Below, one piece after another: positions 7,046 through 56,665 of a DNA stretch of 57,248 nucleotides; the first letter of the stretch is position 1; the number at the start of each line of letters is the position of its first letter. The notes beneath the pieces are model-generated. The model did no database searches, was not told the origin of the DNA, and worked only from the letters and a program-made list of their open reading frames with translations. A program made the translations under genes and the position numbers. Source of the DNA: a virus; IMG/VR virus record IMGVR_UViG_3300007276_000057, positions 1 to 57,248 of that record; one strand, written 5' to 3'.

Positions 7046-7068
7046 GTTAAAAACGCATTGGAGGAAAG

Positions 7069-40767: not shown

Positions 40768-41106
40768 GGGGGTTACATGGTTTCGACAGCGTAGAACTCG
40801 GAGGACGAGTGCAGGTAGGTAAGATACAACCTTAAAAGTTCAAACTTAATAATTGCAAACAATAATTTGTTTTTTGAAGAAGTAGCCTTAGCTGCTTAAT
40901 CAGGTGGTCGCTTCACACCATCTGTCCAAGTGAAGCAACACAACAGATAAGTTGTAAAAATCAAAAAACTTGGTGCAACAGGGTAGTAAGCATCATTTTA
41001 AAGCTGCCTATCTTTGTCGGAGTTGTGATAGGAAACCGACTAAGCCTGTAAATGACTCTAATCTTAGCTGCGTTGGACAGGGGTTCGATTCCCCTATCCT
41101 CCACCA
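40768..41106 (+). ncRNA. ssrA: Transfer-messenger RNA (tmRNA)
   Basis: It rescues stalled ribosomes and tags the nascent chain for proteolysis. The 5' end GGGGGTTACATGGTTTCGAC and 3' end GGGGTTCGATTCCCCTATCC then TCCACCA form the tRNA-like half: T arm AGGGG/CCCCT, acceptor stem with one mismatch, encoded CCA. A tag frame lies at 40855-40899. Several hairpins between tag and 3' half are consistent with pseudoknots. About 339 nt, normal length. Confidence 0.95.
40855..40899 (+). other. tmRNA tag reading frame
   Basis: The frame GCA AAC AAT AAT TTG TTT TTT GAA GAA GTA GCC TTA GCT GCT TAA gives A-N-N-N-L-F-F-E-E-V-A-L-A-A. The Ala resume codon and the ALAA end are typical; ALAA is the ClpX recognition end. 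The upstream position of the resume codon is inferred from this match. Confidence 0.88.
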
Positions 41107-43897: not shown

Positions 43898-43954
43898 ATT
43901 TCATTTCCTTCTTTTGTTATAACAATCTATAGTTATTAATAGGGGGGCTTGCTT

Positions 43955-44662: not shown

Positions 44663-44900
44663 TTTAGGAACTCTCATTTGGGATATGGGAAAGATTGGTG
44701 TGATTTGCCGAATGATCGAGACAGGCAAATTAAATACTTCAAATGCTATGGTGAATTGGCGATTCAATTATGAAATATACTATGTAGACGGGAGTATAAC
44801 AATAATGGGCCACGAAACACTTCAAAGATTAATAGCAAGTGGAGCGGTTCATTTGCTTGAAGAAGAGCATGTCTTGGAGGATCAGATAAATGAATTATAA
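44640..44900 (+). CDS. Small orphan protein
   Basis: 86 residues: M-P-K-A-E-Y-Y-N-L-G-T-L-I-W-D then I-G-V-I-C-R-M-I-E-T, a distant GDLV-like strand pair. It overlaps the protease by 23 nt and the next gene by 11 nt. Confidence 0.6.
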   Translation: MPKAEYYNLGTLIWDMGKIGVICRMIETGKLNTSNAMVNWRFNYEIYYVDGSITIMGHETLQRLIASGAVHLLEEEHVLEDQINEL

Positions 44901-45078
44901 AAATGGCGAGTTAGTTCTTGTTAAGGAAGTGGGAAACACCGAAGTACACTCTTTGTGTATGGTGGTTAAGCCAGTTGGTGTGGCGGCTCTTATGCTGGAG
45001 AGTTATTTTATGGTTTATTCGATAACACATAAAGAAAAGTTTATCGTAACCACACATTTTATGAAGAAAATAGGTTGA
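44890..45078 (+). CDS. Small GDLV-like protein
   Basis: 62 residues opening M-N-Y-K-N-G-E-L-V-L-V-K-E, with L-C-M-V-V-K-P-V-G near 22. Same strand pattern as the GDLV group, variant glycine motif. Unknown function. Confidence 0.58.
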   Translation: MNYKNGELVLVKEVGNTEVHSLCMVVKPVGVAALMLESYFMVYSITHKEKFIVTTHFMKKIG

Positions 45079-45103
45079 CTTATAGGTATAGACGAGATAT
45101 ATT
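45075..45103 (+). promoter_or_regulatory. Sigma70-type promoter
   Basis: TTGACT at 45075-45080 and TATATT at 45098-45103, 17-bp spacer; the -35 box overlaps the end of the preceding gene. Confidence 0.65.
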
Positions 45104-45127
45104 ATGGAAGTTGATTGGAGAATCAAA

Positions 45128-45325
45128 ATGGAAATTGGCGATTTAGTTGAATTTGATGAGGAATTCTATTCCTATATGAAATCGGATAATGCTCTACGAA
45201 TCCAAAAGGTTGGAATTATCACAGAAGTCAAAGAAATGTTTTACTGTGTTACCTCTGGTGACATAACCGACCTCTGGGTAACAACCGCAGATATTAAAAA
45301 AATAAACCTTGACAATGTAGCATAA
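45128..45325 (+). CDS. Small GDLV-family protein
   Basis: 65 residues from the ATG at 45128, preceded by GGAGAATCAAA (chosen over an ATG at 45104). M-E-I-G-D-L-V-E-F-D and V-G-I-I-T-E-V-K near 28 fit the family. The -35 box of the next promoter is inside its end. Confidence 0.65.
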   Translation: MEIGDLVEFDEEFYSYMKSDNALRIQKVGIITEVKEMFYCVTSGDITDLWVTTADIKKINLDNVA

Positions 45326-45336
45326 TCAGTTATAAT
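45309..45336 (+). promoter_or_regulatory. Sigma70-type promoter
   Basis: TTGACA at 45309-45314 and TATAAT at 45331-45336, 16-bp spacer; CTGGAGGTAATA precedes the ATG at 45358. Confidence 0.82.
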
Positions 45337-45357
45337 AATAATACCCTGGAGGTAATA

Positions 45358-45537
45358 ATGAAAAACGATAATGAAATTACAATTAAAATCAATGTTAGTG
45401 ATTCGCTTTTAACCAAGATAGCCAACATTATGTTGTTGACTTCCTCCCCCGCACCCGTGGGTGTAATGATGTCACAGATACCTGCGACCAAAGCGGCACC
45501 CGAAAAAGAAGCGACACCTATTGGATTTAAATCATGA
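45358..45537 (+). CDS. Small orphan protein
   Basis: 59 residues: M-K-N-D-N-E-I-T-I-K-I-N-V-S-D-S-L-L-T-K-I then an Ala/Pro-rich tail. Strong ribosome binding site GGAGGT. It overlaps the next gene by ATGA. Not recognised. Confidence 0.6.
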   Translation: MKNDNEITIKINVSDSLLTKIANIMLLTSSPAPVGVMMSQIPATKAAPEKEATPIGFKS

Positions 45538-45728
45538 AGCAGGGTGATCTCGTTCGCCACATGGCGACCAATAAAAAGTTTTATGTTGTTCTTTGCGAGA
45601 AGAAATACGACAATAATTACAAGCCACGGGTTCAAGTGGTTTCGGCTATCTCTACAAAAAAACATTGGTTTCTTGAAGAAGAATTGGAGGTTCTAAATGG
45701 GAATGACCAACAAAACAACTTTAAATGA
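45534..45728 (+). CDS. Small GDLV-family protein
   Basis: 64 residues. M-K-Q-G-D-L-V-R-H-M and F-Y-V-V-L-C-E-K-K near 16 fit the family, with R-V-Q-V-V-S-A-I as the third strand and the acidic end E-E-E-L-E-V-L-N-G. Overlaps the next gene by 32 nt. Confidence 0.62.
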   Translation: MKQGDLVRHMATNKKFYVVLCEKKYDNNYKPRVQVVSAISTKKHWFLEEELEVLNGNDQQNNFK

Positions 45729-46017
45729 AAAGATCGTATGCTCCGATGGCTTTACGATGTCTGTTCAAGCAAATGAATATTCTTATTGTGAGCCACGATA
45801 TACTGGTGCCGAGCAATATGAAACAGTTGAAATAGGCTACCCCTCGCAGCGAGAAGAATTGCTTATGGAGTATGCTGAAACAAAAGCCGATCCGACTGAT
45901 ACAGTTTATGCTTATGTTCCAGCCGCTTTGGTTTATGCCGTCATAGTTAAACATGGGGGTATGGTATCTGGTGAATTACCAAATGGTATCCCCGGCTGCA
46001 TACCGGAGTTGTTATGA
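45697..46017 (+). CDS. Small orphan protein
   Basis: 106 residues: M-G-M-T-N-K-T-T-L-N-E-K-I-V-C-S-D-G-F then Q-A-N-E-Y-S-Y-C-E-P-R. TTGGAGGTTCTAA precedes the ATG. The end V-P-A-A-L-V-Y-A-V-I-V-K-H-G-G is hydrophobic-helical. Related short phage proteins with this S-Y-C-x-P-R segment exist in my recollection; function unknown. Confidence 0.62.
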   Translation: MGMTNKTTLNEKIVCSDGFTMSVQANEYSYCEPRYTGAEQYETVEIGYPSQREELLMEYAETKADPTDTVYAYVPAALVYAVIVKHGGMVSGELPNGIPGCIPELL

Positions 46018-46220
46018 AAATAGGTGACTTGATTAGATGGGAAGAACTGAAGATGAAGCAGTACATACCCTATCGTGAAAAGCAAAGAGTAGGTGTGATT
46101 ACCAATATTAGTTTTAAAGGTGAGGATCAGTACCAAATCTATGTTACTTGTACAAATGGAAAAAAACATCAGGTATGCCCTGTCGATGATAGCGTTGAGG
46201 TGATAGATGAAAATAGGTGA
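46014..46220 (+). CDS. GDLV cassette protein
   Basis: 68 residues. M-K-I-G-D-L-I-R-W-E and V-G-V-I-T-N-I-S near 28. The tail V-E-V-I-D-E-N-R is encoded by the ribosome binding site and start of the next gene (14-nt overlap). First of the cassette junctions. Confidence 0.68.
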   Translation: MKIGDLIRWEELKMKQYIPYREKQRVGVITNISFKGEDQYQIYVTCTNGKKHQVCPVDDSVEVIDENR

Positions 46221-46398
46221 TTTAGTTTATGTAAGTGATGAGGCTATCGTTCCGAGCGGTGCTACCCTACACGGGTTCCCCGCCTTGGTTGTCTCCATAC
46301 CCAATGAAGAAGATTTAATTGTTATGGCTGGAGGCACAAAGATCCTCGTAAGCCGCCAAGATTGCCGCATATACGGCGAGGAGGTCACCAATGGCTAA
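46207..46398 (+). CDS. GDLV cassette protein
   Basis: 63 residues. M-K-I-G-D-L-V-Y-V-S then A-L-V-V-S-I-P near 26 and K-I-L-V-S-R-Q-D-C near 48. Starts inside the previous gene's tail, overlaps the following gene by 8 nt. Confidence 0.66.
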   Translation: MKIGDLVYVSDEAIVPSGATLHGFPALVVSIPNEEDLIVMAGGTKILVSRQDCRIYGEEVTNG

Positions 46399-46675
46399 CA
46401 TATACTGGAACGAAGAGAAGGCACCTGAAACAGAGACGAGAGAGGCTCTAATGAAGGAGCTTGTAGAATGCACTGACGATGCCTTCGACATTAGATTCGG
46501 TGGTGATGGTGCCGGTAAACATGTCGCTGTATATGTTGAGGCTCCTTCAGACGGTCGTGACCCTTACCCTTGGAAGAAACGATTGCCTCCCAAGTTTATG
46601 GGGTGGAGAGTTGTAATAATCTTCTGCCCCCCTACCTATGTCAAAGAAATTCTCAACTGGGTACGAGGTGACTGA
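46391..46675 (+). CDS. Small orphan protein
   Basis: 94 residues. M-A-N-I-Y-W-N-E-E-K-A-P-E-T-E-T-R-E-A-L then D-I-R-F-G-G-D-G-A-G-K-H near 33 and W-K-K-R-L-P-P-K-F-M-G-W near 62. GGCGAGGAGGTCACC precedes the ATG. Not recognised. Confidence 0.62.
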   Translation: MANIYWNEEKAPETETREALMKELVECTDDAFDIRFGGDGAGKHVAVYVEAPSDGRDPYPWKKRLPPKFMGWRVVIIFCPPTYVKEILNWVRGD

Positions 46676-46676
46676 T

Positions 46677-46838
46677 ATGTACGATAGAACATACATTATC
46701 GTCAAAAGGCTTTTTGTGGAACTACATAGGGTCAAGTACAATCATGTTGATGAGGACGAGATATATAAAAAAACTGCTGCTATTCTTCAGCAATTGAAAG
46801 AATTAGAAACTATTTTAAAGATAAAGATTGAGGGGTGA
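46677..46838 (+). CDS. Small helical protein
   Basis: 53 residues from the ATG at 46677: M-Y-D-R-T-Y-I-I-V-K-R then a charged helix ending L-K-I-K-I-E-G. Only one base separates it from the previous stop. Unknown. Confidence 0.52.
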   Translation: MYDRTYIIVKRLFVELHRVKYNHVDEDEIYKKTAAILQQLKELETILKIKIEG

Positions 46839-46841
46839 ACC

Positions 46842-47042
46842 ATGGGACAAAGAAGATTAAGGAATCCATTTAAAATTACAAAGACCATCGTGGAAAGGTT
46901 TGATACCCTTGACCGAGGGGATATAGGCTGCTACGGTATCCTACTACCCCACTCCCCTGCGGAGCCCATGATATACGAGAGCAAGCCTGTCGCAGATAAA
47001 GCTTATGCTTATCTCAAGAAAGTATGGAAATTGGATGATTAA
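46842..47042 (+). CDS. Small orphan protein
   Basis: 66 residues: basic start M-G-Q-R-R-L-R-N-P-F-K-I-T-K-T, then G-D-I-G-C-Y-G-I near 27. GAGGGGTGAACC precedes the ATG. Overlaps the next gene by 8 nt. Confidence 0.56.
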   Translation: MGQRRLRNPFKITKTIVERFDTLDRGDIGCYGILLPHSPAEPMIYESKPVADKAYAYLKKVWKLDD

Positions 47043-47193
47043 CATTGGCGATTTAGTTTATGATAACTGCGATACACAAAAGACACTTGGTTTAGTTACC
47101 AAATCAATGCACGGGCGATGGCTCATACATTTTTTAAATGAACGAAAGGTTTGGCTTTTCGCGAGGGATATAACAAAGATATATGAACGATGA
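47035..47193 (+). CDS. Small GDLV-family protein
   Basis: 52 residues from the ATG at 47035: M-I-N-I-G-D-L-V-Y-D-N then L-G-L-V-T-K-S-M near 19. A compact family member. Confidence 0.62.
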   Translation: MINIGDLVYDNCDTQKTLGLVTKSMHGRWLIHFLNERKVWLFARDITKIYER

Positions 47194-47452
47194 TGGAAAA
47201 ATAAGAGTAAAGTCTGGTCGCTGGGTGATACCGCAAGTTGCGAATATACATGGTGATGTAACAGACATTAAGATTGGGGACTTAGCAAAGGTTGCTGGTC
47301 GCTTGGCTCTTATTCTGGACATTAAAGAACATAAAGAAACATGGATAAAGAAAGTAAAATTGCGCTGGTTAAGCGAAGAACAAGACTATTGGATTAGTTT
47401 CAATACATTCACTGAATTATATGGAGGAAAAGCGAATGACCAAGAAAAATAA
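47183..47452 (+). CDS. Small GDLV-family protein with N-terminal extension
   Basis: 89 residues. The motif I-K-I-G-D-L-A-K-V-A is at about 29-38 rather than at the start, with L-A-L-I-L-D-I-K after it. The first 28 residues add a strand pair (I-R-V-K-S-G-R-W-V-I-P). Overlaps the next gene by 17 nt. Confidence 0.6.
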   Translation: MNDDGKIRVKSGRWVIPQVANIHGDVTDIKIGDLAKVAGRLALILDIKEHKETWIKKVKLRWLSEEQDYWISFNTFTELYGGKANDQEK

Positions 47453-47699
47453 ACAATTGAACCCTGGATACGAATGGGAGACACCGATGGATAATTTCAC
47501 AGCAATGGGTTTAGCAGAGGGTTTCATTGATGCAACCAGCGAAAACCAAATCATCGAAGCATGGCAGCACCTTGTTGATACTGGTGTTGTTTGGTCGCTT
47601 CAAGGTTGGTTTGGTAGAAATGCTAAGAGATTGATTGAGAACGGTGTTATACGACCCGGACCAAGAACAAAGAACAAAGCCAAGAATCAAAAGAAATAA
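47436..47699 (+). CDS. Conserved-type small phage protein (DUF7417-like)
   Basis: 87 residues from the ATG at 47436, which follows GGAGGAAAAGCGA. A-E-G-F-I-D-A-T-S-E-N-Q-I-I-E-A-W-Q-H-L-V-D-T-G near residue 27, then L-Q-G-W-F-G-R-N-A-K-R-L-I-E-N-G-V-I. This E-A-W-Q-x-L-x-D-T-G and L-Q-G-x-F-G-R pattern recurs in many phages as a small protein of unknown function; the family name is from memory. Confidence 0.78.
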   Translation: MTKKNKQLNPGYEWETPMDNFTAMGLAEGFIDATSENQIIEAWQHLVDTGVVWSLQGWFGRNAKRLIENGVIRPGPRTKNKAKNQKK

Positions 47700-47708
47700 A
47701 CTTTTTTC

Positions 47709-47736
47709 TTGACAAATATCGACAACTGATTATATT
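47709..47736 (+). promoter_or_regulatory. Sigma70-type promoter
   Basis: TTGACA at 47709-47714 and TATATT at 47731-47736, 16-bp spacer. The sequence around it lacks the palindrome of the later modules. Confidence 0.8.
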
Positions 47737-47766
47737 ACCTACGAACCACAGACAAATGGAGTCAAG

Positions 47767-47973
47767 ATGATTGAAGAAATACTTGATATAATCACTGAAC
47801 AGTTGCCTGACAATCTGGTAATGAGTTTTTTAGATTCATACGCAAAGATTTATGCACATAACCCTGATGAGCTTGGTAGCTATTCTTGGGCTGCAACTGA
47901 TACCCCAGAGGCCATTGCAAAGCTTTTAAAAGAAAACCCAGAATTGAGACCACCGGAATTTAAACAAAAATAA
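47767..47973 (+). CDS. Small acidic protein
   Basis: 68 residues, helical: M-I-E-E-I-L-D-I-I-T-E-Q-L-P-D-N then Y-S-W-A-A-T-D-T-P-E-A-I-A-K. ATGGAGTCAAG precedes the ATG. Unknown. Confidence 0.62.
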   Translation: MIEEILDIITEQLPDNLVMSFLDSYAKIYAHNPDELGSYSWAATDTPEAIAKLLKENPELRPPEFKQK

Positions 47974-47974
47974 C

Positions 47975-48002
47975 TTGACAAAAAACCACAACTGGTTAAA
48001 TT
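47975..48002 (+). promoter_or_regulatory. Sigma70-type promoter
   Basis: TTGACA at 47975-47980 and TAAATT at 47997-48002, 16-bp spacer; shares ACTGGTTA and GAACC-type flanks with neighbouring promoters. Confidence 0.7.
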
Positions 48003-48032
48003 ACATATGAACCTCAAACAACGGAGTCAAAA

Positions 48033-48302
48033 ATGATGAGGAACGACCAAGTAATTAGAGCATGGAACAACGGACAACGAGCCAGATCAGGTAGTATGAA
48101 AACAGACGGTAGGTCATTGTTTTCTTATCGCTTATGTATCGGCAAGACTGATTGTGAGGGCAACAAAGTCTTGTTTGACTGGACATCACCTGGTGGCGGT
48201 TATGTTAGCCAGACCACTTCAGTTCATGTAAACAAAGCGAAGCAGTTGTCCTCTGCTGCTATTATGCGACCCGATACAGCAAAGATTGCCGGTCTTGTAT
48301 GA
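48033..48302 (+). CDS. Conserved-type small phage protein
   Basis: 89 residues. R-N-D-Q-V-I-R-A-W-N-N-G-Q-R-A-R-S-G near residue 3, S-Y-R-L-C-I-G near 31 and G-G-Y-V-S-Q-T-T-S-V-H-V near 55 form a pattern I recall in many phages, function unknown. AACGGAGTCAAAA precedes the ATG. Overlaps the next gene by ATGA. Confidence 0.72.
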   Translation: MMRNDQVIRAWNNGQRARSGSMKTDGRSLFSYRLCIGKTDCEGNKVLFDWTSPGGGYVSQTTSVHVNKAKQLSSAAIMRPDTAKIAGLV

Positions 48303-48496
48303 AGGTCGGCGACCTCGTTAGAGTTGCCGGTGGAGCCGAATACGATGAAAGGCTATTGGGTATAGTAGTCAAGGTATTTCGCTACACCGGCATTCGCTCT
48401 GTGCGGGTCTTATTGATGTCTGGAGAAGAACACAATTATATACCACATGTTTTAACAGTTATTAACAAACCGGACAAAAAGTGTCCTCGACAATAA
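48299..48496 (+). CDS. Small GDLV-family protein
   Basis: 65 residues. M-K-V-G-D-L-V-R-V-A-G and L-G-I-V-V-K-V-F near 20. The last codons (K-P-D-K-K-C-P-R-Q) are encoded by the palindromic promoter module that follows, so the frame runs into it before stopping. Confidence 0.66.
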   Translation: MKVGDLVRVAGGAEYDERLLGIVVKVFRYTGIRSVRVLLMSGEEHNYIPHVLTVINKPDKKCPRQ

Positions 48497-48514
48497 AAGA
48501 AAATTGGTTATATT
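48472..48514 (+). promoter_or_regulatory. Palindromic promoter module 1
   Basis: GGACA (48472) and TGTCC (48482-48486) flank AAAAG; TCGACA serves as -35 and TATATT at 48509-48514 as -10. The palindrome ends 22 nt before the -10 box, as in all twelve copies. Confidence 0.85.
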
Positions 48515-48536
48515 ATAAGGGTAACAAGGAGAGAAC

Positions 48537-49352
48537 ATGTCATATTCTAGAACCGTACAATGCTCACACTGCTATCGTCAAGGACACAATATATCTGGCT
48601 GCCCAGACCTCATAAAACTTTATGAAGAATACAAGCAGATAATAACGAAGTATAAAGAAGACAACCCTAACTGGCTTGGTTCCACTCATAGTAGCATGTC
48701 TCATTCAACGATGAGAGATTTGGGCATGAACTGGCAGCACATCAAAGCAGCAAGAGTCATGTCTAAAAAGGAACACAAGAGGACCAATCGCCAATGCACT
48801 TACTGCTATGGGAAAGGTCATAATCGCCGCACCTGTAAGCATTTGAAGAGTCACCTTGATCTTCTGGTCAAAGCACAAGTCGCTTATAATGAAAAGATAG
48901 CCAAGTCCTTGACGGCTGCTGGTTATGGTGTTGGTGCCTTGGTTCAGCAAAAAGGGGAAAGGTGGGATTCAAGGACCGGCACTTATGCGGAGTATAACGA
49001 AATGGGTGTTATTACGGACTTCAATCTGAATTATTGTATTATCGAATTTCTTCGCTCGACTTACCAACGTCAACCAACGATTGGGGCTCACCTCGGTGGC
49101 GAAAGAATGCGCCTGATGCCTTACTTCAATGAACAGGTCAAGAGTGAGTTAGCCATCGGCACGGCTTGGCAGAGCAGCCCCGACCATATCCTACTATCCC
49201 GCTCTCATACCCCCGTACCCCCACCCGTACATACGGAGAAAGGAATTAGGAACTCTATCAAAGAAGACCTAAAGGATTGGAATCTTGCGAGTGTTAAGGC
49301 ATGGTTCCACCGTCTTGAAGGCATTGTTGAGGTTCCGAATGAAGATCGGTGA
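48537..49352 (+). CDS. Double zinc-knuckle (CCHC) protein
   Basis: 271 residues. Two retroviral-type knuckles C-x2-C-x4-H-x4-C are visible: C-S-H-C-Y-R-Q-G-H-N-I-S-G-C near residue 9 and C-T-Y-C-Y-G-K-G-H-N-R-R-T-C near 87. Such knuckles bind single-stranded RNA or DNA. Residues about 130-205 (G-V-G-A-L-V-Q, M-G-V-I-T-D-F, C-I-I-E-F-L) look like a variant of the GDLV barrel. The last residues E-V-P-N-E-D-R come from the start of the next cassette gene. AAGGAGAGAAC precedes the ATG. Confidence 0.82.
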   Translation: MSYSRTVQCSHCYRQGHNISGCPDLIKLYEEYKQIITKYKEDNPNWLGSTHSSMSHSTMRDLGMNWQHIKAARVMSKKEHKRTNRQCTYCYGKGHNRRTCKHLKSHLDLLVKAQVAYNEKIAKSLTAAGYGVGALVQQKGERWDSRTGTYAEYNEMGVITDFNLNYCIIEFLRSTYQRQPTIGAHLGGERMRLMPYFNEQVKSELAIGTAWQSSPDHILLSRSHTPVPPPVHTEKGIRNSIKEDLKDWNLASVKAWFHRLEGIVEVPNEDR

Positions 49353-49515
49353 CCTTATAAGGGATGTACAAACACAAAGAATTGGCTTAGTCGTGGACAT
49401 TTATGAAAGCATAGCACAAACTCATTATAAAGTTCTTAATTTAAAAGGAGGCACCGAATGGTTTCCAAAGGACTTTGCCCATGGTAAATGCGAGGTGGTC
49501 AATGAAGGTAGGTAA
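49339..49515 (+). CDS. GDLV cassette protein
   Basis: 58 residues. M-K-I-G-D-L-I-R-D-V, I-G-L-V-V-D-I-Y, then W-F-P-K-D-F-A. It starts inside the previous gene with the standard 14-nt overlap and ends in C-E-V-V-N-E-G-R encoded by the next start. Confidence 0.7.
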   Translation: MKIGDLIRDVQTQRIGLVVDIYESIAQTHYKVLNLKGGTEWFPKDFAHGKCEVVNEGR

Positions 49516-49690
49516 CCTTGTTAAATATCACGAACCTCGTATGCCTGTGTTTCATGGCTGTATTGGGGTTGTTATATCGTTCTATGACCGCTATCACGAA
49601 TGGAAGGAAAGTATTTTGGTTGAACTCACAGATGGAAGACAATTTGTCGATCACTCGGAATGCTTCGAGGTGCTGAGTGAAATGCGGTGA
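49502..49690 (+). CDS. GDLV cassette protein
   Basis: 62 residues. M-K-V-G-N-L-V-K-Y-H and I-G-V-V-I-S-F-Y near 22. Asn replaces the usual Asp, which also turns the upstream stop from TGA to TAA. Ends in F-E-V-L-S-E-M-R at the next junction. Confidence 0.7.
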   Translation: MKVGNLVKYHEPRMPVFHGCIGVVISFYDRYHEWKESILVELTDGRQFVDHSECFEVLSEMR

Positions 49691-49871
49691 CTTGATCCAA
49701 TGTCGAGAGACAAGGAGGCTGGCTATCGTTGTTGTACCTCCAGATAAAAAAACTGGATGGCTGAAAGTTCGTTGGGTTGATTCTGGGGTTGAATTGCTGA
49801 CCCAAAATATCGCTTGGAAAAATCTAACAAAAACCGGACAAAAAATGTCCTCGACAAAGATTCGGAAGTAG
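49677..49871 (+). CDS. GDLV cassette protein reading into a promoter module
   Basis: 64 residues with GTG start (M-K-C-G-D-L-I-Q-C) and L-A-I-V-V-V-P-P. The final 12 residues (T-G-Q-K-M-S-S-T-K-I-R-K) are encoded by palindromic module 2, so its original stop seems lost. Confidence 0.66.
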   Translation: MKCGDLIQCRETRRLAIVVVPPDKKTGWLKVRWVDSGVELLTQNIAWKNLTKTGQKMSSTKIRK

Positions 49872-49878
49872 TTATATT
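49836..49878 (+). promoter_or_regulatory. Palindromic promoter module 2
   Basis: GGACA-AAAAA-TGTCC at 49836-49850, TCGACA at 49851-49856, TATATT at 49873-49878. It lies in the 3' end of the preceding coding frame. Confidence 0.82.
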
Positions 49879-49902
49879 CTATGGGTATTCAAGAGGTAAA
49901 AA

Positions 49903-50589
49903 ATGGAACAGGAAATCACTTATGAAGATCTTAAAGAGGCTGCCCAAACAGCAGATAACCTTGGCGATAGTTACGCTGTCAGGGTTCTCACCAGTATGTC
50001 CGAGAAATTTATGAAGTGGGGTAAGTTAACCACTCGTCAAACCGATTTTGCTCGCAGCCTAATTGAGAGAAACAGCCCTGAAGCCGTTAATGCTCAAAGC
50101 AATTGGATTGAGAGAGTCAAAACAGATTTAGACTTTCAAGAAAGAATCGAAGTTATAGCAAGATATTATTCAGTTACACAATATTTCTCTGCTACCACTG
50201 GCGACTTTTTGAATTGGTTAAAAGATCGAGACGATAAATATATGCCTTCTGAGCATTCAGTTATGAAAATGATTGATAACAAGTTTTCAAATAAGGTTTG
50301 GGAAAGTCACAAAGGAAAGCAGATATGGAATGTCGGTGACCTTGTACAAGCCCGTCAAAATGCAGCCATTCAACCTGCTTCAAGAGAGTTTTTCCTGCAT
50401 CATGGCGAATGCAGAGATTGGGTCTGGATGATAGTGGAACCCAACTCGCGACCCATCGACCGCTCCATTGGATACGATGAAAAGAAGGGGGGCGCACGAT
50501 ATTATCGCTTGCTTAAACTTGGCGGCACTCAACAAATAGATGTCATCGAGTGCGAACTAAAACGAGTTCCTAAAAAACTCCTTAAATAA
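49903..50589 (+). CDS. Helical protein fused to a GDLV-type domain
   Basis: 228 residues. The N-terminal 140 residues are helical, with K-L-T-T-R-Q-T-D-F-A-R-S-L-I-E-R near residue 42, a segment seen in other phage proteins. At about 145 comes I-W-N-V-G-D-L-V-Q-A-R, the GDLV opening, followed by W-V-W-M-I-V-E-P and a basic C-terminal strand. A fusion of an array domain to a second module. AAGAGGTAAAAA precedes the ATG. Function unknown. Confidence 0.68.
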   Translation: MEQEITYEDLKEAAQTADNLGDSYAVRVLTSMSEKFMKWGKLTTRQTDFARSLIERNSPEAVNAQSNWIERVKTDLDFQERIEVIARYYSVTQYFSATTGDFLNWLKDRDDKYMPSEHSVMKMIDNKFSNKVWESHKGKQIWNVGDLVQARQNAAIQPASREFFLHHGECRDWVWMIVEPNSRPIDRSIGYDEKKGGARYYRLLKLGGTQQIDVIECELKRVPKKLLK

Positions 50590-50598
50590 ATAACAAAC

Positions 50599-50641
50599 GG
50601 ACAAAAAATGTCCGTGACAGTTTGCAAGAACTGGTTATATT
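50599..50641 (+). promoter_or_regulatory. Palindromic promoter module 3
   Basis: GGACA-AAAAA-TGTCC at 50599-50613, GTGACA at 50614-50619, TATATT at 50636-50641. Confidence 0.85.
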
Positions 50642-50664
50642 ATATACATGAAAAGGAGAGATAA

Positions 50665-50820
50665 ATGAAAGTCGGTGATTTAGTAAAAACAAGAAAAGGC
50701 AACCTTTGTATGGTTACAGAAATCAACAAGAAAGATTTTTGTGTTGATGTTCTCTTTGTTAAGACTGGTGTTCTTAGGACTGGTCTGCCCATGGGTGCTT
50801 TGTTGAAGGTGGTAAAATGA
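50665..50820 (+). CDS. Small GDLV-family protein
   Basis: 51 residues: M-K-V-G-D-L-V-K-T-R-K-G-N-L-C-M-V-T-E-I then V-D-V-L-F-V. AAGGAGAGATAA precedes the ATG. The stop overlaps the next ATG. Confidence 0.68.
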   Translation: MKVGDLVKTRKGNLCMVTEINKKDFCVDVLFVKTGVLRTGLPMGALLKVVK

Positions 50821-50996
50821 AAGTAGGTGATTTGGTAAAATTTAGAGGCTCAATCGGTATTATCATCGAACTTCATAGCGATTATCGCCATGGTACAGCA
50901 GAGGTCCAATGGATTGAAGGTGACCGAGATGTCATTTCCAGAAAGGTTTTAAAGGCGATAGAACAAACCAGAAATGTTTTAAAGGCGATAGAATAA
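50817..50996 (+). CDS. Small GDLV-family protein with duplicated tail
   Basis: 59 residues. M-K-V-G-D-L-V-K-F-R-G and I-G-I-I-I-E-L-H. The C-terminus repeats R-K-V-L-K-A-I-E and R-N-V-L-K-A-I-E through a 30-bp tandem duplication. Confidence 0.66.
   Translation: MKVGDLVKFRGSIGIIIELHSDYRHGTAEVQWIEGDRDVISRKVLKAIEQTRNVLKAIE
50938..50993 (+). repeat. 30-bp tandem duplication
   Basis: CCAGAAAGGTTTTAAAGGCG and CCAGAAATGTTTTAAAGGCG, each followed by ATAGAA, start at 50938 and 50968. They differ by one base and duplicate the last ten codons of the gene. Confidence 0.85.
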
Positions 50997-51000
50997 AACC

Positions 51001-51043
51001 GGACATTTTATGTCCTCGACATAATTCATCAAGCGGTTATATT
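51001..51043 (+). promoter_or_regulatory. Palindromic promoter module 4
   Basis: GGACA-TTTTA-TGTCC at 51001-51015, TCGACA at 51016-51021, TATATT at 51038-51043. Confidence 0.85.
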
Positions 51044-51066
51044 ATATGTATCAAAAGGAGAAAAAA

Positions 51067-51273
51067 ATGAAAGTAGGTGATTTATTCGTTTATAACAGTC
51101 GTTTCAGCAACACCATTCACGAAGGGCAAAGGTGTGTCTATCTTGGAGAAGACTTTATTCACCGAAGCGACGGTGTGGTGGTTCAAAATCACAAGATTCT
51201 CTTTGTGGGCGATTCTGTCCCGACAACGATTGATATTGGTGTGTTGAAATGGTTAAAGAAGGTGGTAAAATGA
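51067..51273 (+). CDS. Small GDLV-family protein
   Basis: 68 residues from the ATG at 51067: M-K-V-G-D-L-F-V-Y-N then Q-R-C-V-Y-L-G-E-D-F. AAAGGAGAAAAAA precedes the ATG. Overlaps the next gene by ATGA. Confidence 0.66.
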   Translation: MKVGDLFVYNSRFSNTIHEGQRCVYLGEDFIHRSDGVVVQNHKILFVGDSVPTTIDIGVLKWLKKVVK

Positions 51274-51446
51274 AAATAGGCGATTTAGTAAGGTGGGAAA
51301 ATACCGCTGGTGAATATGAATTGGGCATAGTTACATCGTTCGACGCATACGATGAATATCTGGGAGTCAAGGTGTATTTCTTTGACGATGGATTCATCTC
51401 TGAAATGTCCAAAGAAGACTTGGAGGTGATAAGTGAAAATCGGTGA
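51270..51446 (+). CDS. GDLV cassette protein
   Basis: 58 residues: M-K-I-G-D-L-V-R-W-E, L-G-I-V-T-S-F-D, and the junction tail L-E-V-I-S-E-N-R. Confidence 0.7.
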   Translation: MKIGDLVRWENTAGEYELGIVTSFDAYDEYLGVKVYFFDDGFISEMSKEDLEVISENR

Positions 51447-51636
51447 TTTAGTAAAATACAACGACCCTCGGTATCCAGAATGGAGTTCACTTGTCGGCAT
51501 CATTAGCCGTCAAATCCCAGGGACAGCAGAATATCAACGGGTTATCTGGAACAACGGAACCCACAGCACTTTACCAAAAAAATATCTAAGGAGATTAGAC
51601 TATGGAAATACAAAAGGGAACTTTACTAAGAAATAA
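51433..51636 (+). CDS. GDLV cassette protein
   Basis: 67 residues with a GTG start: M-K-I-G-D-L-V-K-Y-N, L-V-G-I-I-S-R-Q. Overlaps the next gene by 35 nt, longer than the standard junction. Confidence 0.68.
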   Translation: MKIGDLVKYNDPRYPEWSSLVGIISRQIPGTAEYQRVIWNNGTHSTLPKKYLRRLDYGNTKGNFTKK

Positions 51637-51835
51637 AAGCGATAAGTCATACGCTATCGTAATTCAAGAACCAGCAGTCAGGTTTTTCCCTGATGCAAAT
51701 CATCGTTATGGTGAGTTTGAATCTGGTGTCGCTGATACTGCTATCCGTATCAAATGGGTTCAGAATGGTTATGAACACACTTTGCAGAGAAGCAAAATGT
51801 CGGCAAATTGGGAGGTGGTCAATGAAGATCGGTGA
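51602..51835 (+). CDS. Small cassette protein with variant start
   Basis: 77 residues: M-E-I-Q-K-G-T-L-L-R-N then Y-A-I-V-I-Q-E, I-R-I-K-W-V near 51, and junction tail W-E-V-V-N-E-D-R. The opening differs from GDLV but the fold pattern is alike. Confidence 0.66.
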   Translation: MEIQKGTLLRNKSDKSYAIVIQEPAVRFFPDANHRYGEFESGVADTAIRIKWVQNGYEHTLQRSKMSANWEVVNEDR

Positions 51836-52022
51836 TTTAGTTAAATGGACTGACTACAAAGGACCAGAACCAATTGAACATGTTGGGCTCTTTATTGAGA
51901 GAGTTAAAGACTTTCATGTCGATGCTGTTAATAACAATTGGGGTGATATTATCGTTATCTATGATGGAGAATATACCAAATGGACTTCTTGGCAGTGCGA
52001 AGTGATAAATGAAGATCGGTGA
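51822..52022 (+). CDS. GDLV cassette protein
   Basis: 66 residues: M-K-I-G-D-L-V-K-W-T, V-G-L-F-I-E-R-V near 22, and junction tail C-E-V-I-N-E-D-R. Confidence 0.7.
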   Translation: MKIGDLVKWTDYKGPEPIEHVGLFIERVKDFHVDAVNNNWGDIIVIYDGEYTKWTSWQCEVINEDR

Positions 52023-52179
52023 CTTGGTTACATTAAAACAACAGTGTCGTGATTCTGACCGCTTGGCGATTATTGTTTCTTTGGCGCAATTCGACCCCGG
52101 CTATGTTTATATCGCTTTCATGGACGACCCTACAAATCGTATCATTTGTGCGGTGGGAAATATTATTGAATTAAATTGA
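52009..52179 (+). CDS. GDLV cassette protein (last in array)
   Basis: 56 residues: M-K-I-G-D-L-V-T-L-K, L-A-I-I-V-S-L-A near 19, and end N-I-I-E-L-N. It lacks the junction tail because no cassette follows. Confidence 0.68.
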   Translation: MKIGDLVTLKQQCRDSDRLAIIVSLAQFDPGYVYIAFMDDPTNRIICAVGNIIELN

Positions 52180-52183
52180 AAAC

Positions 52184-52226
52184 GGACACATTTTGTCCTC
52201 GACAAGTTCAGAGGACTGGTTATATT
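52184..52226 (+). promoter_or_regulatory. Palindromic promoter module 5
   Basis: GGACA-CATTT-TGTCC at 52184-52198, TCGACA at 52199-52204, TATATT at 52221-52226. Confidence 0.85.
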
Positions 52227-52248
52227 ATAAGGGTAACAAGGAGAAAAC

Positions 52249-52332
52249 ATGTCAAGAAATAAAACTTTAGCACTTGCCGCACTCGCAGACATTATTTGCT
52301 GGACTGGACTCATTTGGTTGATTTTTTTTTAA
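52249..52332 (+). CDS. 27-residue membrane microprotein
   Basis: M-S-R-N-K-T-L-A-L-A-A-L-A-D-I-I-C-W-T-G and then a hydrophobic end (L-I-W-L-I-F-F). AAGGAGAAAAC precedes the ATG and it has its own palindromic promoter, so it is probably expressed. A single membrane helix is predicted. Confidence 0.62.
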   Translation: MSRNKTLALAALADIICWTGLIWLIFF

Positions 52333-52334
52333 TC

Positions 52335-52377
52335 GGACAAATTTTGTCCGACATCATGTTTTTACATATGCTATATT
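52335..52377 (+). promoter_or_regulatory. Palindromic promoter module 6
   Basis: GGACA-AATTT-TGTCC at 52335-52349 and TATATT at 52372-52377, keeping the 22-nt gap although the -35 box is degenerate. Confidence 0.78.
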
Positions 52378-52399
52378 ATTAGTGTACCAAGGAGATAAA

Positions 52400-52486
52400 A
52401 TGTTCAGTTTAACCTTAGAAGATTTAGGAATTATGATAATAATGGCTTTCATGTTTTCATTTATTATTTTTCTGGGCCTTCCATAA
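52400..52486 (+). CDS. 28-residue membrane microprotein
   Basis: M-F-S-L-T-L-E-D-L-G-I-M-I-I-M-A-F-M-F-S with a hydrophobic end (F-I-I-F-L-G-L-P). CAAGGAGATAAA precedes the ATG; a private promoter module lies upstream. Predicted single membrane helix. Confidence 0.62.
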   Translation: MFSLTLEDLGIMIIMAFMFSFIIFLGLP

Positions 52487-52489
52487 AAC

Positions 52490-52532
52490 GGACAAAAAAT
52501 GTCCTTGAAACTTTCTGAGACATAGTTATATT
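52490..52532 (+). promoter_or_regulatory. Palindromic promoter module 7
   Basis: GGACA-AAAAA-TGTCC at 52490-52504, TTGAAA at 52505-52510, TATATT at 52527-52532. It drives the MoxR-like gene. Confidence 0.85.
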
Positions 52533-52575
52533 ATAAGAGTAAAAACAAACCATACCTAACCACTGGAGACAAAAA

Positions 52576-53631
52576 ATGTCTATTGATTTTAAAACATTCC
52601 TTTCAATTGTTCCTCACATTATTGAGGCTCGCTTTCCTATTCTGACCCGTGGTCGTCATGGTATCGGTAAATCAACTCTCGTTTATCAACTCGCCAAGCA
52701 AATGGATCTTGAAGTTGTTGAACGAAGAGCCTCTCAAATGACCGAAGGTGATTTGCTTGGGCTTCCAAAAGTTGAGGACAATGTGACTCAGTGGCTTGCT
52801 CCTGAGTGGTTGCACACTGCTTGCAACAAGCCAGTCATTCTTTTCTTAGATGAAGTTGACCGAGCCACAATGGAAGTTCGCCAAGGTATCTTTGAACTTT
52901 GTGATTCTCGTAAGATTGCTGGCTACACTTTGCACCCTGACACAATTATCTTTGCTGCTGTTAACGGTGGAGAGCATGGAGCCCAATATCAAGTTGGTGA
53001 AATGGACCCTGCTGAATTGGACCGCTACACTGTCTTTGATGTAGAGCCTACCGTTGAGGATTGGCTTGCTTGGGCTAAGACTGAGGTTTGCGATGAGATT
53101 TGGAACTTCATCAACCAGAATCACCAGCACCTTGAGCATCGTGACGACTATGAACCAAACAAGGTTTATCCTTCTCGTCGCTCTTGGGAAAGACTTTCTA
53201 AGACTCTAAGTGGTTTAGATAAAGTTGAACACTCGCCAACCCTTTATCACTTGTCCACTGCTTTTGTTGGCTTTGAGGCTGCTATTGCTCTTAACGATTT
53301 TGTTAAGAACTACGACCGACAAGTAACTGTTGAGGATATTATTGACGACGGTAAACTTGAATTAACTAAAGACTGGAAAATCAACGACCACAATGCTTTG
53401 ATTGAGAAGATTAAAGCCAAAGAAACCTTTGCAGAAAAGTTGACTGATAATCGTTTGCAGAATGTCGCCAACTACTTTGTAACCCTTCCGTCTGAGGTTG
53501 CTATGAGTTTGTGGCAAGCCATGGGCAACAGCGAGTTCGCAACTCACAATGTGTCTCGCCTCCATGGAATGACTGCCTCTAATGGTGTGAAGATTCAAGA
53601 GTATATCGTAGAAATCTTAACCGCAAAATAA
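52576..53631 (+). CDS. MoxR-type AAA+ ATPase
   Basis: 351 residues. Walker A is G-R-H-G-I-G-K-S-T-L near residue 25, Walker B V-I-L-F-L-D-E-V-D-R near 90, then F-A-A-V-N-G-G near 131 (sensor 1) and D-P-A-E-L-D-R-Y near 147, the MoxR order. The C-terminal domain (about 285-351) has V-A-N-Y-F-V-T-L-P-S-E-V-A-M-S-L-W-Q-A-M-G. MoxR ATPases remodel proteins together with a VWA partner, here the next gene. CTGGAGACAAAAA precedes the ATG. Confidence 0.9.
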   Translation: MSIDFKTFLSIVPHIIEARFPILTRGRHGIGKSTLVYQLAKQMDLEVVERRASQMTEGDLLGLPKVEDNVTQWLAPEWLHTACNKPVILFLDEVDRATMEVRQGIFELCDSRKIAGYTLHPDTIIFAAVNGGEHGAQYQVGEMDPAELDRYTVFDVEPTVEDWLAWAKTEVCDEIWNFINQNHQHLEHRDDYEPNKVYPSRRSWERLSKTLSGLDKVEHSPTLYHLSTAFVGFEAAIALNDFVKNYDRQVTVEDIIDDGKLELTKDWKINDHNALIEKIKAKETFAEKLTDNRLQNVANYFVTLPSEVAMSLWQAMGNSEFATHNVSRLHGMTASNGVKIQEYIVEILTAK

Positions 53632-53634
53632 ACC

Positions 53635-53677
53635 GGACAAAAAATGTCCTCGCCAAATGGCGAGGGCAGGTTATATT
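53635..53677 (+). promoter_or_regulatory. Palindromic promoter module 8
   Basis: GGACA-AAAAA-TGTCC at 53635-53649 and TATATT at 53672-53677. A second inverted repeat, CCTCGCC-AAAT-GGCGAGG (53648-53665), replaces the -35 box, a variant unique to this copy. Confidence 0.8.
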
Positions 53678-53699
53678 ATAAAGGTAACAAGGAGTTAAC

Positions 53700-54926
53700 A
53701 TGTCCGAAGAACAAGTTAGATTTGACTTAAATAAATATACATTCCGATTGCTTCAAAATGAGCCGTTTTTTGCCGCTTTGTCTCGTCGGATACATAAGCG
53801 ACCAACCAAGTCAATTCCAACGGCTGGTGTTATGATAAATAAAAGCACTTCTCAATTTGAAATGCTTTACAATGAGGAGTTCATGGAAGGACTCGCAGAC
53901 GACCACAAACTTGGCGTCCTGATGCATGAATTCTATCACATTATCTTTGAGCATGTGACCGGACGATTGCCTCCAGAGGGCATGTCTATGATGTGGAATG
54001 TAGCGACTGACCTATCTATCAATTCTCATCTTATCGGTAAACTTCCCAAAGAAGCATGTATCCCTGGTGCTGAAGGTCCATTCAAAGAATACCCTATAGG
54101 TAAATCAGCCGAATGGTACTTCTCCAAGCTTCAAAATGATGAGCAATTCAAGAAAGACCCAAAGGACGGCGACGGTCAATCTGGCGAAGGTGACGGCGAA
54201 TCCCAAGGTTCAAGTGGCTCTGGTGGACTTGGCGATCATGTATTTGATAATCATGATGGCTGGGAGGAAGCAAGCGAAGAAGTCAAGCAGATTGCAAAAG
54301 AAAGAATGAAACAAGCAGTAGCCGACGCAGCAAAAGAAGTACAGGCTAAAGGTTCTTCATGGGGCACAGTCTCAGCCCAAACCCGTCAACAAATCATGGA
54401 CATGATTAGTCCAAAGGTTGACTGGCGCAAGGTTCTTAGATATTTTGTTAAGACCTCCCAACGGTCAAGCAAGCGGTCAACCGTTCGCCGTATCAATAAG
54501 CGATTCCCTTATATCCATTCAGGCAAGAAGGTCACAAGACAAGCCAAGATAGCCATATCAATTGACCAGTCTGGTTCGGTTGATGATAAAATGCTCGCCG
54601 CTTTCTTTTCAGAACTTAATAGTTTATCGAAGTTTGCCGAGTTTACTGTGATTCCATTCGATACCGAAGTAGAAGAAAGCAAGGTGTTTGTATGGAAGAA
54701 AGGTCAAAAGAAAGTTTGGGAACGTGTACTTTGCGGTGGAACCTGCTTTGATGCTCCAACCAGATATGTCAACAAACATAATTTTGACGGTCATATTATC
54801 TTAACTGATATGATGGCTCCCAAGCCAGTCGCTTCCAAATGTCAACGCATGTGGATGACCGACCAGCAAAACGCCAATAACCCCTATTTTCAAACCAGAG
54901 AGCGAGTGATCGCAATCGAACCCTAA
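53700..54926 (+). CDS. VWA-domain protein with HExxH motif (DUF2201-like)
   Basis: 408 residues. L-M-H-E-F-Y-H-I-I-F-E-H near residue 78 is a HExxH-type metal motif of the DUF2201 N-terminal domain. A Gly/Ser/Asp-rich linker (G-D-G-Q-S-G-E-G-D-G-E-S) lies near 160. The VWA-like domain has A-I-S-I-D-Q-S-G-S-V near 287, the MIDAS DxSxS motif. It is the usual partner of MoxR ATPases in metal-centre insertion or complex remodelling. AAGGAGTTAAC precedes the ATG. Confidence 0.88.
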   Translation: MSEEQVRFDLNKYTFRLLQNEPFFAALSRRIHKRPTKSIPTAGVMINKSTSQFEMLYNEEFMEGLADDHKLGVLMHEFYHIIFEHVTGRLPPEGMSMMWNVATDLSINSHLIGKLPKEACIPGAEGPFKEYPIGKSAEWYFSKLQNDEQFKKDPKDGDGQSGEGDGESQGSSGSGGLGDHVFDNHDGWEEASEEVKQIAKERMKQAVADAAKEVQAKGSSWGTVSAQTRQQIMDMISPKVDWRKVLRYFVKTSQRSSKRSTVRRINKRFPYIHSGKKVTRQAKIAISIDQSGSVDDKMLAAFFSELNSLSKFAEFTVIPFDTEVEESKVFVWKKGQKKVWERVLCGGTCFDAPTRYVNKHNFDGHIILTDMMAPKPVASKCQRMWMTDQQNANNPYFQTRERVIAIEP

Positions 54927-54938
54927 GAGAACTAAAAA

Positions 54939-55280
54939 ATGAACAAGAAGTATAACCTATCCGACGAATCCGTCGAAGCCTTTGAAGGCATTGTCCAAGA
55001 CATAAAAAAGAATAAAAGAACCATAAGATATATAAAGAACACAAGAGACAGACAGAGGTTAAATGCTGGCTGGAACTTTCAAACCAAGTGGACCAAGAAG
55101 ACCATTCAGAAAGCAGCAGACTTTATCACTTCATTAGAAGCCGATGATGCTCTAACCTTTTGGCAGTCAATTGGTATGGGACCAAGTGCAAATCATAACA
55201 TAGCCAAACTTCACACGGCTGTTTCTTCAGAGGGAATAATGGTCAAAGACCATTTAATAAATATATTATCAAAAGAATAA
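54939..55280 (+). CDS. Stand-alone paralogue of the MoxR C-terminal domain
   Basis: 113 residues. Its second half (I-Q-K-A-A-D-F-I-T-S-L-E...L-T-F-W-Q-S-I-G-M-G...H-N-I-A-K-L-H) aligns with the MoxR C-terminus (L-Q-N-V-A-N-Y-F-V-T-L-P...M-S-L-W-Q-A-M-G...H-N-V-S-R-L-H), and both end in a strand plus I-L-(S/T)-(K/A). Third member of the MoxR-VWA operon and a likely assembly or competition factor. Confidence 0.8.
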   Translation: MNKKYNLSDESVEAFEGIVQDIKKNKRTIRYIKNTRDRQRLNAGWNFQTKWTKKTIQKAADFITSLEADDALTFWQSIGMGPSANHNIAKLHTAVSSEGIMVKDHLINILSKE

Positions 55281-55283
55281 GCC

Positions 55284-55326
55284 GGACATAAATTGTCCTT
55301 CACAAACATTGTTATCTGGTTATATT
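55284..55326 (+). promoter_or_regulatory. Palindromic promoter module 9
   Basis: GGACA-TAAAT-TGTCC at 55284-55298, TTCACA at 55299-55304, TATATT at 55321-55326. Confidence 0.84.
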
Positions 55327-55350
55327 ATTAGTATAGAAAGGAGAAAACAA

Positions 55351-55680
55351 ATGGACATTTGGATTGTTTTAGAGATACTAAATACAGACGAAGGTTTGGA
55401 ACATTACACCACAGCACACTTAACGAAAAAAGGTGCTTATATTGCAGGTTGGAAGCTTTTGAAATCTCAATACCGCGATGCTTTTGGCTTTGAAGACGAG
55501 GTTAGTTTACTTAACGATGAACAGGGTGACCTGCTTGATTCAATTCTTAAAACAAAAGACTTGAATAGCTTTAAACTTGAGGTACTTGAAAATAGTTTTG
55601 TTGAAATTGGCTATCACATTTCAGCCGCCCTCGATTGGAATTTTGAAGTGGCGATAAACAAATGCAAAGCTTTTTCATAA
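55351..55680 (+). CDS. Orphan protein
   Basis: 109 residues from the ATG at 55351, preceded by AAAGGAGAAAACAA. M-D-I-W-I-V-L-E-I-L-N-T-D-E-G then K-K-G-A-Y-I-A-G-W-K-L-L near 28. Acidic, mixed alpha/beta; not recognised. Confidence 0.66.
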   Translation: MDIWIVLEILNTDEGLEHYTTAHLTKKGAYIAGWKLLKSQYRDAFGFEDEVSLLNDEQGDLLDSILKTKDLNSFKLEVLENSFVEIGYHISAALDWNFEVAINKCKAFS

Positions 55681-55683
55681 GCC

Positions 55684-55726
55684 GGACATAAATTGTCCTC
55701 GACAAGAAGCACCAACTGGTTATATT
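55684..55726 (+). promoter_or_regulatory. Palindromic promoter module 10
   Basis: GGACA-TAAAT-TGTCC at 55684-55698, TCGACA at 55699-55704, TATATT at 55721-55726. Confidence 0.85.
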
Positions 55727-55762
55727 ATATGTGTAAGAAACAAGACAACAAGGAGTCTAAAA

Positions 55763-56191
55763 ATGAGCATGAGATTAGTAACATACGAAGGAAAAAAAGT
55801 GGACATTCTCACCAAGATAGCCAGTGATGTTTATTGGGGTCTATCAAAGGTAGAATTTTATCTTCTTATCCAGAAGGTTGTTGACATCGTAACATTTAAC
55901 GATGACTATTACAATGAAACTGGTTATCTTCATGGTGATTCTATGGACGAGGGTGTTGATCTTCTTAAATTGATTCTTTCACAACAAGCACCAAGAACGG
56001 GAAAAGGCTCACAATATCCTGATGCTAAACGCAGAGAAGACCGATGGTCTTGGGGGCAATCCCGCACTGCGAGAGATTTACACCACCAAGACATTACAAG
56101 AAAAGATTTTAACCAATGGGTTGGAGTTATGAGAAGGTCGGTAAAATTAGCTCATGGTCTTGATGCTGCCAAACAAGCAATCGGACAATAA
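55763..56191 (+). CDS. Orphan protein
   Basis: 142 residues, helical: M-S-M-R-L-V-T-Y-E-G-K-K-V-D-I-L then Q-Y-P-D-A-K-R-R-E-D-R-W-S-W-G near 84. CAAGGAGTCTAAAA precedes the ATG. Its stop codon lies inside the palindrome of module 11. Not recognised. Confidence 0.66.
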   Translation: MSMRLVTYEGKKVDILTKIASDVYWGLSKVEFYLLIQKVVDIVTFNDDYYNETGYLHGDSMDEGVDLLKLILSQQAPRTGKGSQYPDAKRREDRWSWGQSRTARDLHHQDITRKDFNQWVGVMRRSVKLAHGLDAAKQAIGQ

Positions 56192-56225
56192 TTGTCCTCG
56201 ACAAGAATCACCAACGGGTTATATT
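56183..56225 (+). promoter_or_regulatory. Palindromic promoter module 11
   Basis: GGACA-ATAAT-TGTCC at 56183-56197, TCGACA at 56198-56203, TATATT at 56220-56225. The upstream gene ends within the loop (G-Q-stop). Confidence 0.84.
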
Positions 56226-56250
56226 ATAAGGGTAACAAGGAGAAAACACA

Positions 56251-56619
56251 ATGGCTTATTTGAGACCAAACACAACTATCTTTATGCAGAACAACGGACA
56301 ACCAATATATTCTATCATTGAGAAGATTGCTTTTAGAAAGTATTGGGGAAAGAGAAAGGACAAGAACACTGGACAAATGGTTCGTGCTCGCAAGTCTATG
56401 CCCTTTGCTGTCTGTTCTGTGTCCATGTCTTCTGACTCTGATATTCCAATTGGTGCTAAGTTTCTTATCCCTGGGTATCAATTGCGGAATGTCACAATGA
56501 AGGGCGAGAAGATACTTTGCTTTCATGATAAATACTCTGCCGAGTTTGCCCAAGAGTACGGCAACGAATGGGTCAAGACTTTGATAGCAGAAGAAGAACT
56601 AAAGATATCAAACAAATAA
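56251..56619 (+). CDS. Orphan protein
   Basis: 122 residues. M-A-Y-L-R-P-N-T-T-I-F-M-Q-N-N-G, then F-R-K-Y-W-G-K-R-K-D-K-N-T-G-Q near 28, and a strand-rich end (A-K-F-L-I-P-G-Y-Q-L). AAGGAGAAAACACA precedes the ATG. Not recognised. Confidence 0.66.
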   Translation: MAYLRPNTTIFMQNNGQPIYSIIEKIAFRKYWGKRKDKNTGQMVRARKSMPFAVCSVSMSSDSDIPIGAKFLIPGYQLRNVTMKGEKILCFHDKYSAEFAQEYGNEWVKTLIAEEELKISNK

Positions 56620-56622
56620 ACC

Positions 56623-56665
56623 GGACATAAATTTTCCTTGAAGAAATCCTCAGAGCGGTTATATT
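56623..56665 (+). promoter_or_regulatory. Palindromic promoter module 12 (degenerate)
   Basis: GGACA at 56623 and TTTCC in place of TGTCC at 56633-56637; TATATT at 56660-56665 keeps the 22-nt gap. Confidence 0.72.

Follow-up and report, generated by a model that had tools for sequence, protein, structure and literature searches.

Dimeric activators of the CRP type act on class II and class I promoters from sites near -42, -52, -63 and -73, that is, in helical phase, and their -35 box is poorer at promoters where it directly adjoins the site. In E. coli, Fis activates proP P2 from about -41. In the middle promoters of T4 a MotA box near -30 replaces the -35. High-affinity Fis sites are governed by a few rules, namely a border G, Y-R steps, an A/T centre and a pyrimidine outside the border (PMC4784862), and Fis site I of rrnB P1 and tyrT is located at -71, with multiple sites on one helix face (PMC2885671). 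Lambda NinH is a Fis mimic encoded by a phage; it is a dimer like Fis and has a site of the form G-N13-C (PMC7166090). In T4-type phages there are also the promoter/stem-loop (PeSL) cassettes (Arbiol 2010 and Comeau 2014, both as cited in PMC4503421).

A repeated promoter module in a marine phage

The window analyzed here (the whole stretch of DNA, 57,248 nt, and one entire IMG/VR record) is a fragment of an uncultivated phage of about 190 kb and codes, among others, for a DnaE-type polymerase, a ribonucleotide reductase and GroEL. Its relatives have genomes of up to about 185-205 kb with T4-type structural genes, and the group as a whole is one of large, uncultivated and abundant marine phages. 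We found no close cultured phage, the polymerase being at most about 31% identical to those of cultured relatives. The window also carries a tmRNA gene (40768-41106, tag ANNNLFFEEVALAA) with an adjoining tRNA-Ala; tmRNA genes recur in at least seven related phages, several of them with similar tags.

A sequence-only reading of this DNA had described a palindrome that recurs twelve times at a fixed 22 nt from TATATT, and our counts agree. GGACA-N5-TGTCC is present in 11 exact copies, against a mean of 0.06 and a maximum of 1 in 100 dinucleotide shuffles, and a twelfth copy, GGACATAAATTTTCC, has one mismatch (Table 1). All copies are confined to positions 48472-56637. The 22-nt gap is found in 11 of 11 exact copies and also in the twelfth; a reversed control pattern with the same 22-nt rule gave 0 matches. 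The same reading had given the -35 box as TCGACA or a variant of it. This is correct for the most part, since TCGACA appears in 6 of the 12 promoters and the other boxes are mostly variants, but the GACATC of element 6 is a non-match. The promoters of the window outside this set are, as had been stated, plain sigma70 ones (TTGACA-N16/17-TATAAT/TATATT) without the palindrome.

Table 1. Copies of the palindromic element in the window, with their promoter boxes and downstream genes
Feature	Position	Strand	-35 box	-10 box	Downstream
Element 1, GGACAAAAAGTGTCC	48472..48486	+	TCGACA 48487-48492	TATATT 48509-48514	ORF 48537-49352 (CCHC zinc-knuckle-like protein)
Element 2, GGACAAAAAATGTCC	49836..49850	+	TCGACA	49873-49878	ORF 49903-50589
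Element 3	50599..50613	+	GTGACA	50636-50641	ORF 50665-50820 (MKVGDLV-type)
Element 4	51001..51015	+	TCGACA	51038-51043	
Element 5	52184..52198	+	TCGACA	52221-52226	
Element 6	52335..52349	+	poor (GACATC)	52372-52377	
Element 7	52490..52504	+	TTGAAA	52527-52532	AAA ATPase ORF 52576-53631
Element 8	53635..53649	+	TCGCCA	53672-53677	DUF2201 ORF 53700-54926
Element 9	55284..55298	+	TTCACA	55321-55326	
Element 10	55684..55698	+	TCGACA	55721-55726	ORF 55763-56191
Element 11	56183..56197	+	TCGACA	56220-56225	ORF 56251-56619
Element 12, degenerate, GGACATAAATTTTCC	56623..56637	+	TTGAAG	56660-56665	
Part of hyperplastic block with short element-carrying operons	48472..56665	+			

A hyperplastic block in related phages

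Scanning viral contigs, we have found many relatives with the promoter module, and the same element is present in 17 related phages. Its distribution over 50 related records is bimodal, with several having 6-16 copies of the palindrome in one block and most having none; many relatives of 180-205 kb lack any copy. The copies of a record, which can be up to 20, all lie within one block of 12-20 kb, and the block of our phage may extend beyond the end of the window. A phylogeny of the AAA ATPase with 90 rows contains 16 with at least two promoter-linked elements, and every one of these fell into a single 26-row clade with a support of 100/100.

The genes of the block are poorly shared. Comparing five complete-looking element-bearing genomes, only 37 of the 278 block genes were common to the whole set, while outside the block 362 of 879 were, and the order of shared neighbours was kept in 43% of cases in the block and in 86% elsewhere. 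Among the genes under the element are those of an AAA ATPase, a DUF2201 protein, a CCHC zinc-knuckle-like protein and small MKVGDLV-type proteins, and a Shine-Dalgarno sequence with a start codon follows in 242 of the 258 sites whose promoter is clear. The CCHC proteins have two zinc-knuckle motifs each, something unusual for phages, and recur within the block (48537-49352 in the window; paralogues at 7028-7822, 11038-11853 and 15588-16421 in the related phage G001). Short MKxGDLV... proteins are numerous at 44640-52022 of the window and apparently represent an SH3/KOW-like family expanded both in the block and near it; the model of one of them suggests an SH3-like structure. Just 5' of the block there is an ORF of the trypsin-like serine protease type (43949-44662), with a weak phage protease match and conserved in kin.

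Conservation of the dyad

Over 277 sites the consensus is GGWCA-N5-TGWCC (15 bp). The third arm position is A or T on each side independently (AT 171, TT 45, AA 40, TA 21), which leaves the central pair mismatched in 85 of the 277 sites (31%). At the remaining arm positions single substitutions are almost absent and no compensatory change was seen. The N5 loop is A/T-rich, at least 97% A/T at its three central bases, with G or C mainly at the loop ends. The base 5' of the element (-8) is C/T in 160 of 168 abutting sites and in 74 of 78 sites of the classes at 29-33 and 42-44 nt from the -10 (see below), and +8 is A/G in these distant classes and T in the abutting sites. In the distant classes, therefore, the dyad symmetry extends outward. 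So many broken central pairs next to others that are nearly invariant rule out a hairpin or terminator and indicate a site for a dimeric protein, and we consider that the element is very probably recognized by a sequence-specific protein of this kind. A literature search on the motif did not find a paper describing the element. In G018, one of the related phages, dyads in tandem (GGACA-N5-TGTCC with GGTCA-N5-TGTCC immediately after it) are located upstream of promoters twice, at 37691-38040 in reverse-complement coordinates of the contig.

Position of the element and quality of the -35 box

The relatives refine the picture obtained from the window: the gap takes several phased values, of which 22 nt is merely the most frequent. 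The 258 sites with a clear promoter have gaps to the -10 of 22-23 nt (168), 29-33 (53), 42-44 (25) and 53-54 (3), plus a few others, so that successive classes differ by about one helical turn and the element centres lie near -42, -52, -63 and -73, assuming a -10 hexamer that starts at -12. A single genome (G022) holds the classes 22/23, 32/33 and 43. Using unique phage x distance combinations (n=33), a Rayleigh test gave R=0.64 and p about 1e-6 at 10.5 bp, with a best period that is broad (10-12) and does not sharply fix the helical one. The sites of G018 at 29-30 nt are 2-3 bp off the ideal phase.

The -35 box changes with the distance. An exact TTGACA is found in 11 of 168 abutting sites versus 59 of 81 distant ones, a comparison in which the distant promoters were picked partly by their -35 match and the abutting ones at a fixed place; the effect persists within phages, with a stratified odds ratio of about 45. 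The -35/-10 spacer is 16 in 64% of the abutting sites and 17 in 80% of the distant ones. Helical-turn periodicity and a poorer -35 when abutting are features of activator-dependent (class I/II) promoters, and the geometry of the element is likely that of an activator site. Many element promoters have decent -35/-10 boxes, and there an activator may not be needed.

Exchange of the upstream element between sister phages

The relatives L065/G006 and G018 share about 85% DNA identity over 41.7 kb aligned. In L065/G006 the dyad of G018 is exchanged at 6 of 6 alignable homologous promoters, mostly for A/T tracts. The sisters L066, L067, L070 and L073 have AAAAAAGTTTATCTTTTTCC-like A/T tracts directly upstream of TTGACA in promoters of the same block, and by their sequence the tracts of the sister phages resemble UP elements. 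That a positive element can take the very place of the dyad is the best hint of a positive action of the dyad itself. More distant relatives have other elements. In G026 (L280, L289 region) the direct repeat TTGACA-N5-TTGACA appears in eight copies in the same block, ending about 32 nt before the -10, and G038 has another repeated upstream element, TTTACCCCTTGAAA. In G008 (108179-146752) about 15 promoters have TGAATAAAAC some 14 nt before TATAAT-like boxes, in the position expected of a MotA-like box, so that the layout of this phage is closer to that of MotA promoters. Within the block of the dyad-less G006 there is a LexA-like winged-helix gene (91825-92334) that is absent from its close relative G018. 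We found no obvious HTH gene among the G018-only ORFs in the fragments shared with G006.

Proposed mechanism and other readings

We propose that GGWCA-N5-TGWCC would be the cis-acting operator of a DNA-binding protein that is dimeric and sequence-specific. This protein would occupy the dyad adjoining the -35, or one to three helical turns upstream, on one helix face, and once bound would aid RNA polymerase in starting transcription, most likely by contacting sigma region 4 or the alpha-CTD. In this way a single exchangeable block of accessory genes would have all its promoters in one positively controlled regulon. Taken as a whole, an operator for a polymerase-contacting activator that controls one block is to us a probable reading, and we favour an activator because of the helical phasing, the quality of the -35 boxes and the exchange with UP-like tracts. 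We infer protein binding, activation and polymerase contact from this sequence evidence. The sequence-only reading had already suggested a single regulon in an accessory-gene region, with the site of a phage or host activator or repressor upstream of the -35, and the presence of the element in 17 phages, confined to one block, supports and broadens it.

The same dyad might serve a repressor, a phage or host dimer that would turn the promoters off, as in the case of early ones that are silenced later. The commonest position of the element adjoins the -35, where polymerase could be occluded, many -35/-10 boxes are near consensus, and a regulator acting through the alpha-CTD could repress too. 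Repression is nevertheless improbable: sites 20 and 30 nt upstream of the -35 offer no simple polymerase block and yet keep the helical phase, the -35 box is weaker at the abutting sites, and positive UP-like elements stand in for the dyad in sister phages. Much less credible is a stem-loop terminator or PeSL cassette, in which an RNA hairpin coupled to the promoter would end the upstream transcript and recombination between cassettes would shuffle genes. Perfect copies do form a 5-bp stem of about -6 kcal/mol, and the block is indeed shuffled. But covariation is absent, neither the broken central pairs nor the other pairs being compensated, and for this we have rejected the stem; besides, the folding of sites with mixed arms is weak or does not exceed that of shuffles, just 40 of 258 sites have at least 5 T in the next 8 nt, and a terminator would have no need of helical phase to the -10. 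We give hardly any credit to a mere repeated spacer, which the earlier reading had named as its alternative, or to a promoter block spread by duplication without a binding factor. The window copies are closely spaced and share flanks, but the arms stay constant while loop, spacer and -35 diverge over 17 phages and a deep clade, and the whole-turn register is kept when the element moves.

The identity of the factor is a separate matter from the activator site that we propose. A Fis-type factor is a lead that we hold tentatively, and one supplied by the host, although doubtful, would be likelier than any other single candidate. Close relatives have swapped the element in concert, and the fragments compared show no obvious change of regulator, which makes a host factor an attractive possibility. 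The idea is weakened, but stays plausible, by the absence of the same promoter module as a regulon in cellular genomes, where 84,980 genomes gave 16 hits, all of them single and scattered. That the factor is encoded by the phage is unlikely in our opinion, and it would affect who binds and not the status of the element as an activator site. One candidate is a core protein of 129 aa (L222:4081-4470, G001), whose predicted structure gave Foldseek PDB top matches that are nearly all Fis (best E 0.055). This protein was rejected because, although the fold is right, the residue expected to contact the border G is not conserved: phages that share one operator have K, E, E, I or Y at the position that corresponds to Arg85 of Fis. 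The family is present also in element-free phages. Overall, a Fis-fold protein of about 129 aa, with a variable recognition helix, was found in 162 viral stretches. The other candidate, a small SH3-like protein (44640-44900 in the window), belongs to a family located at the upstream block edge in element-bearing phages with coverage and tracked the element at first. Its gene was then found retained in G006 and G021, both without the element, indicating that its co-occurrence with the element is phylogenetic, and it was also rejected. No match over the cut-off was found to HTH_8 in 20 phages or to HTH_3 in the phages examined. A core ribbon-helix-helix (RHH)-like protein with a conserved acidic C-terminus (33199-33522 in the window) was discarded as regulator, being present in all or nearly all relatives, on a variable strand and unlinked to the element.

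Implications

A broader and rather speculative scenario is that this phage family hooks its accessory block to a Fis-type nucleoid activator of the host, as in rRNA promoters, and that lineages swap all the upstream elements of the block together (the dyad, a UP tract, the direct repeat TTGACA-N5-TTGACA, TTTACCCC or TGAATAAAAC), probably on host change. A large putative regulon of abundant uncultivated marine phages is defined here from sequence alone, and its motif, GGWCANWWWNTGWCC placed in phase with the -10, is sharp and can be tested. A standard promoter module would keep unrelated and fast-exchanged accessory genes under one control. Its swap clade by clade, even at about 85% identity, would be a natural experiment on retuning transcription to the host, and the element could help to tie these phages to their hosts.

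Comparison with known systems

CRP-type promoters share with the phage element the positions, the phase and the weaker -35 when abutting, but neither the half-sites of the phage element nor the odd spacing between them resembles those of CRP. The UP element, made of A/T tracts that bind the alpha-CTD, has the same location, and UP-like tracts are found there in sister phages, but the window copies and their kin carry a symmetric dyad instead of a tract. In the T4 middle promoters, too, an upstream box marks a class of phage promoters; the box of the phages described here, in contrast, is upstream of a -35 that is retained. With the PeSL cassettes, as far as they are described in the citing article, the module shares repeated promoter modules, hyperplastic regions and gene shuffling, but the phage palindrome would be a phased DNA site and not a hairpin or terminator. 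NinH offers a parallel, being a dimer similar to Fis that a phage encodes and that has a G-N13-C site, although in that work (PMC7166090) it is not tied to a promoter regulon.

The likeness to Fis sites, noticed after the fact, extends to the 15-bp base-centred dyad, the G-N13-C borders, the A/T centre, the pyrimidine next to the border G and the placement upstream of promoters along one face of the helix. Because the motif is defined with them, every site has G at -7 and C at +7, and deviants at the fixed distance from the -10 are almost absent. The Y-R steps are represented by CA/TG at +/-(3-4), and the pyrimidine rule at +/-8 holds with the exception of the right side of the abutting sites (T at +8). 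The differences are that the phage element is invariant at +/-6, which is no rule of Fis sites and contrasts with the degeneracy of E. coli sites at both +/-5 and +/-6, and that, unlike Fis-activated promoters, the phage promoters have strict GGWCA half-sites in many copies within one block.
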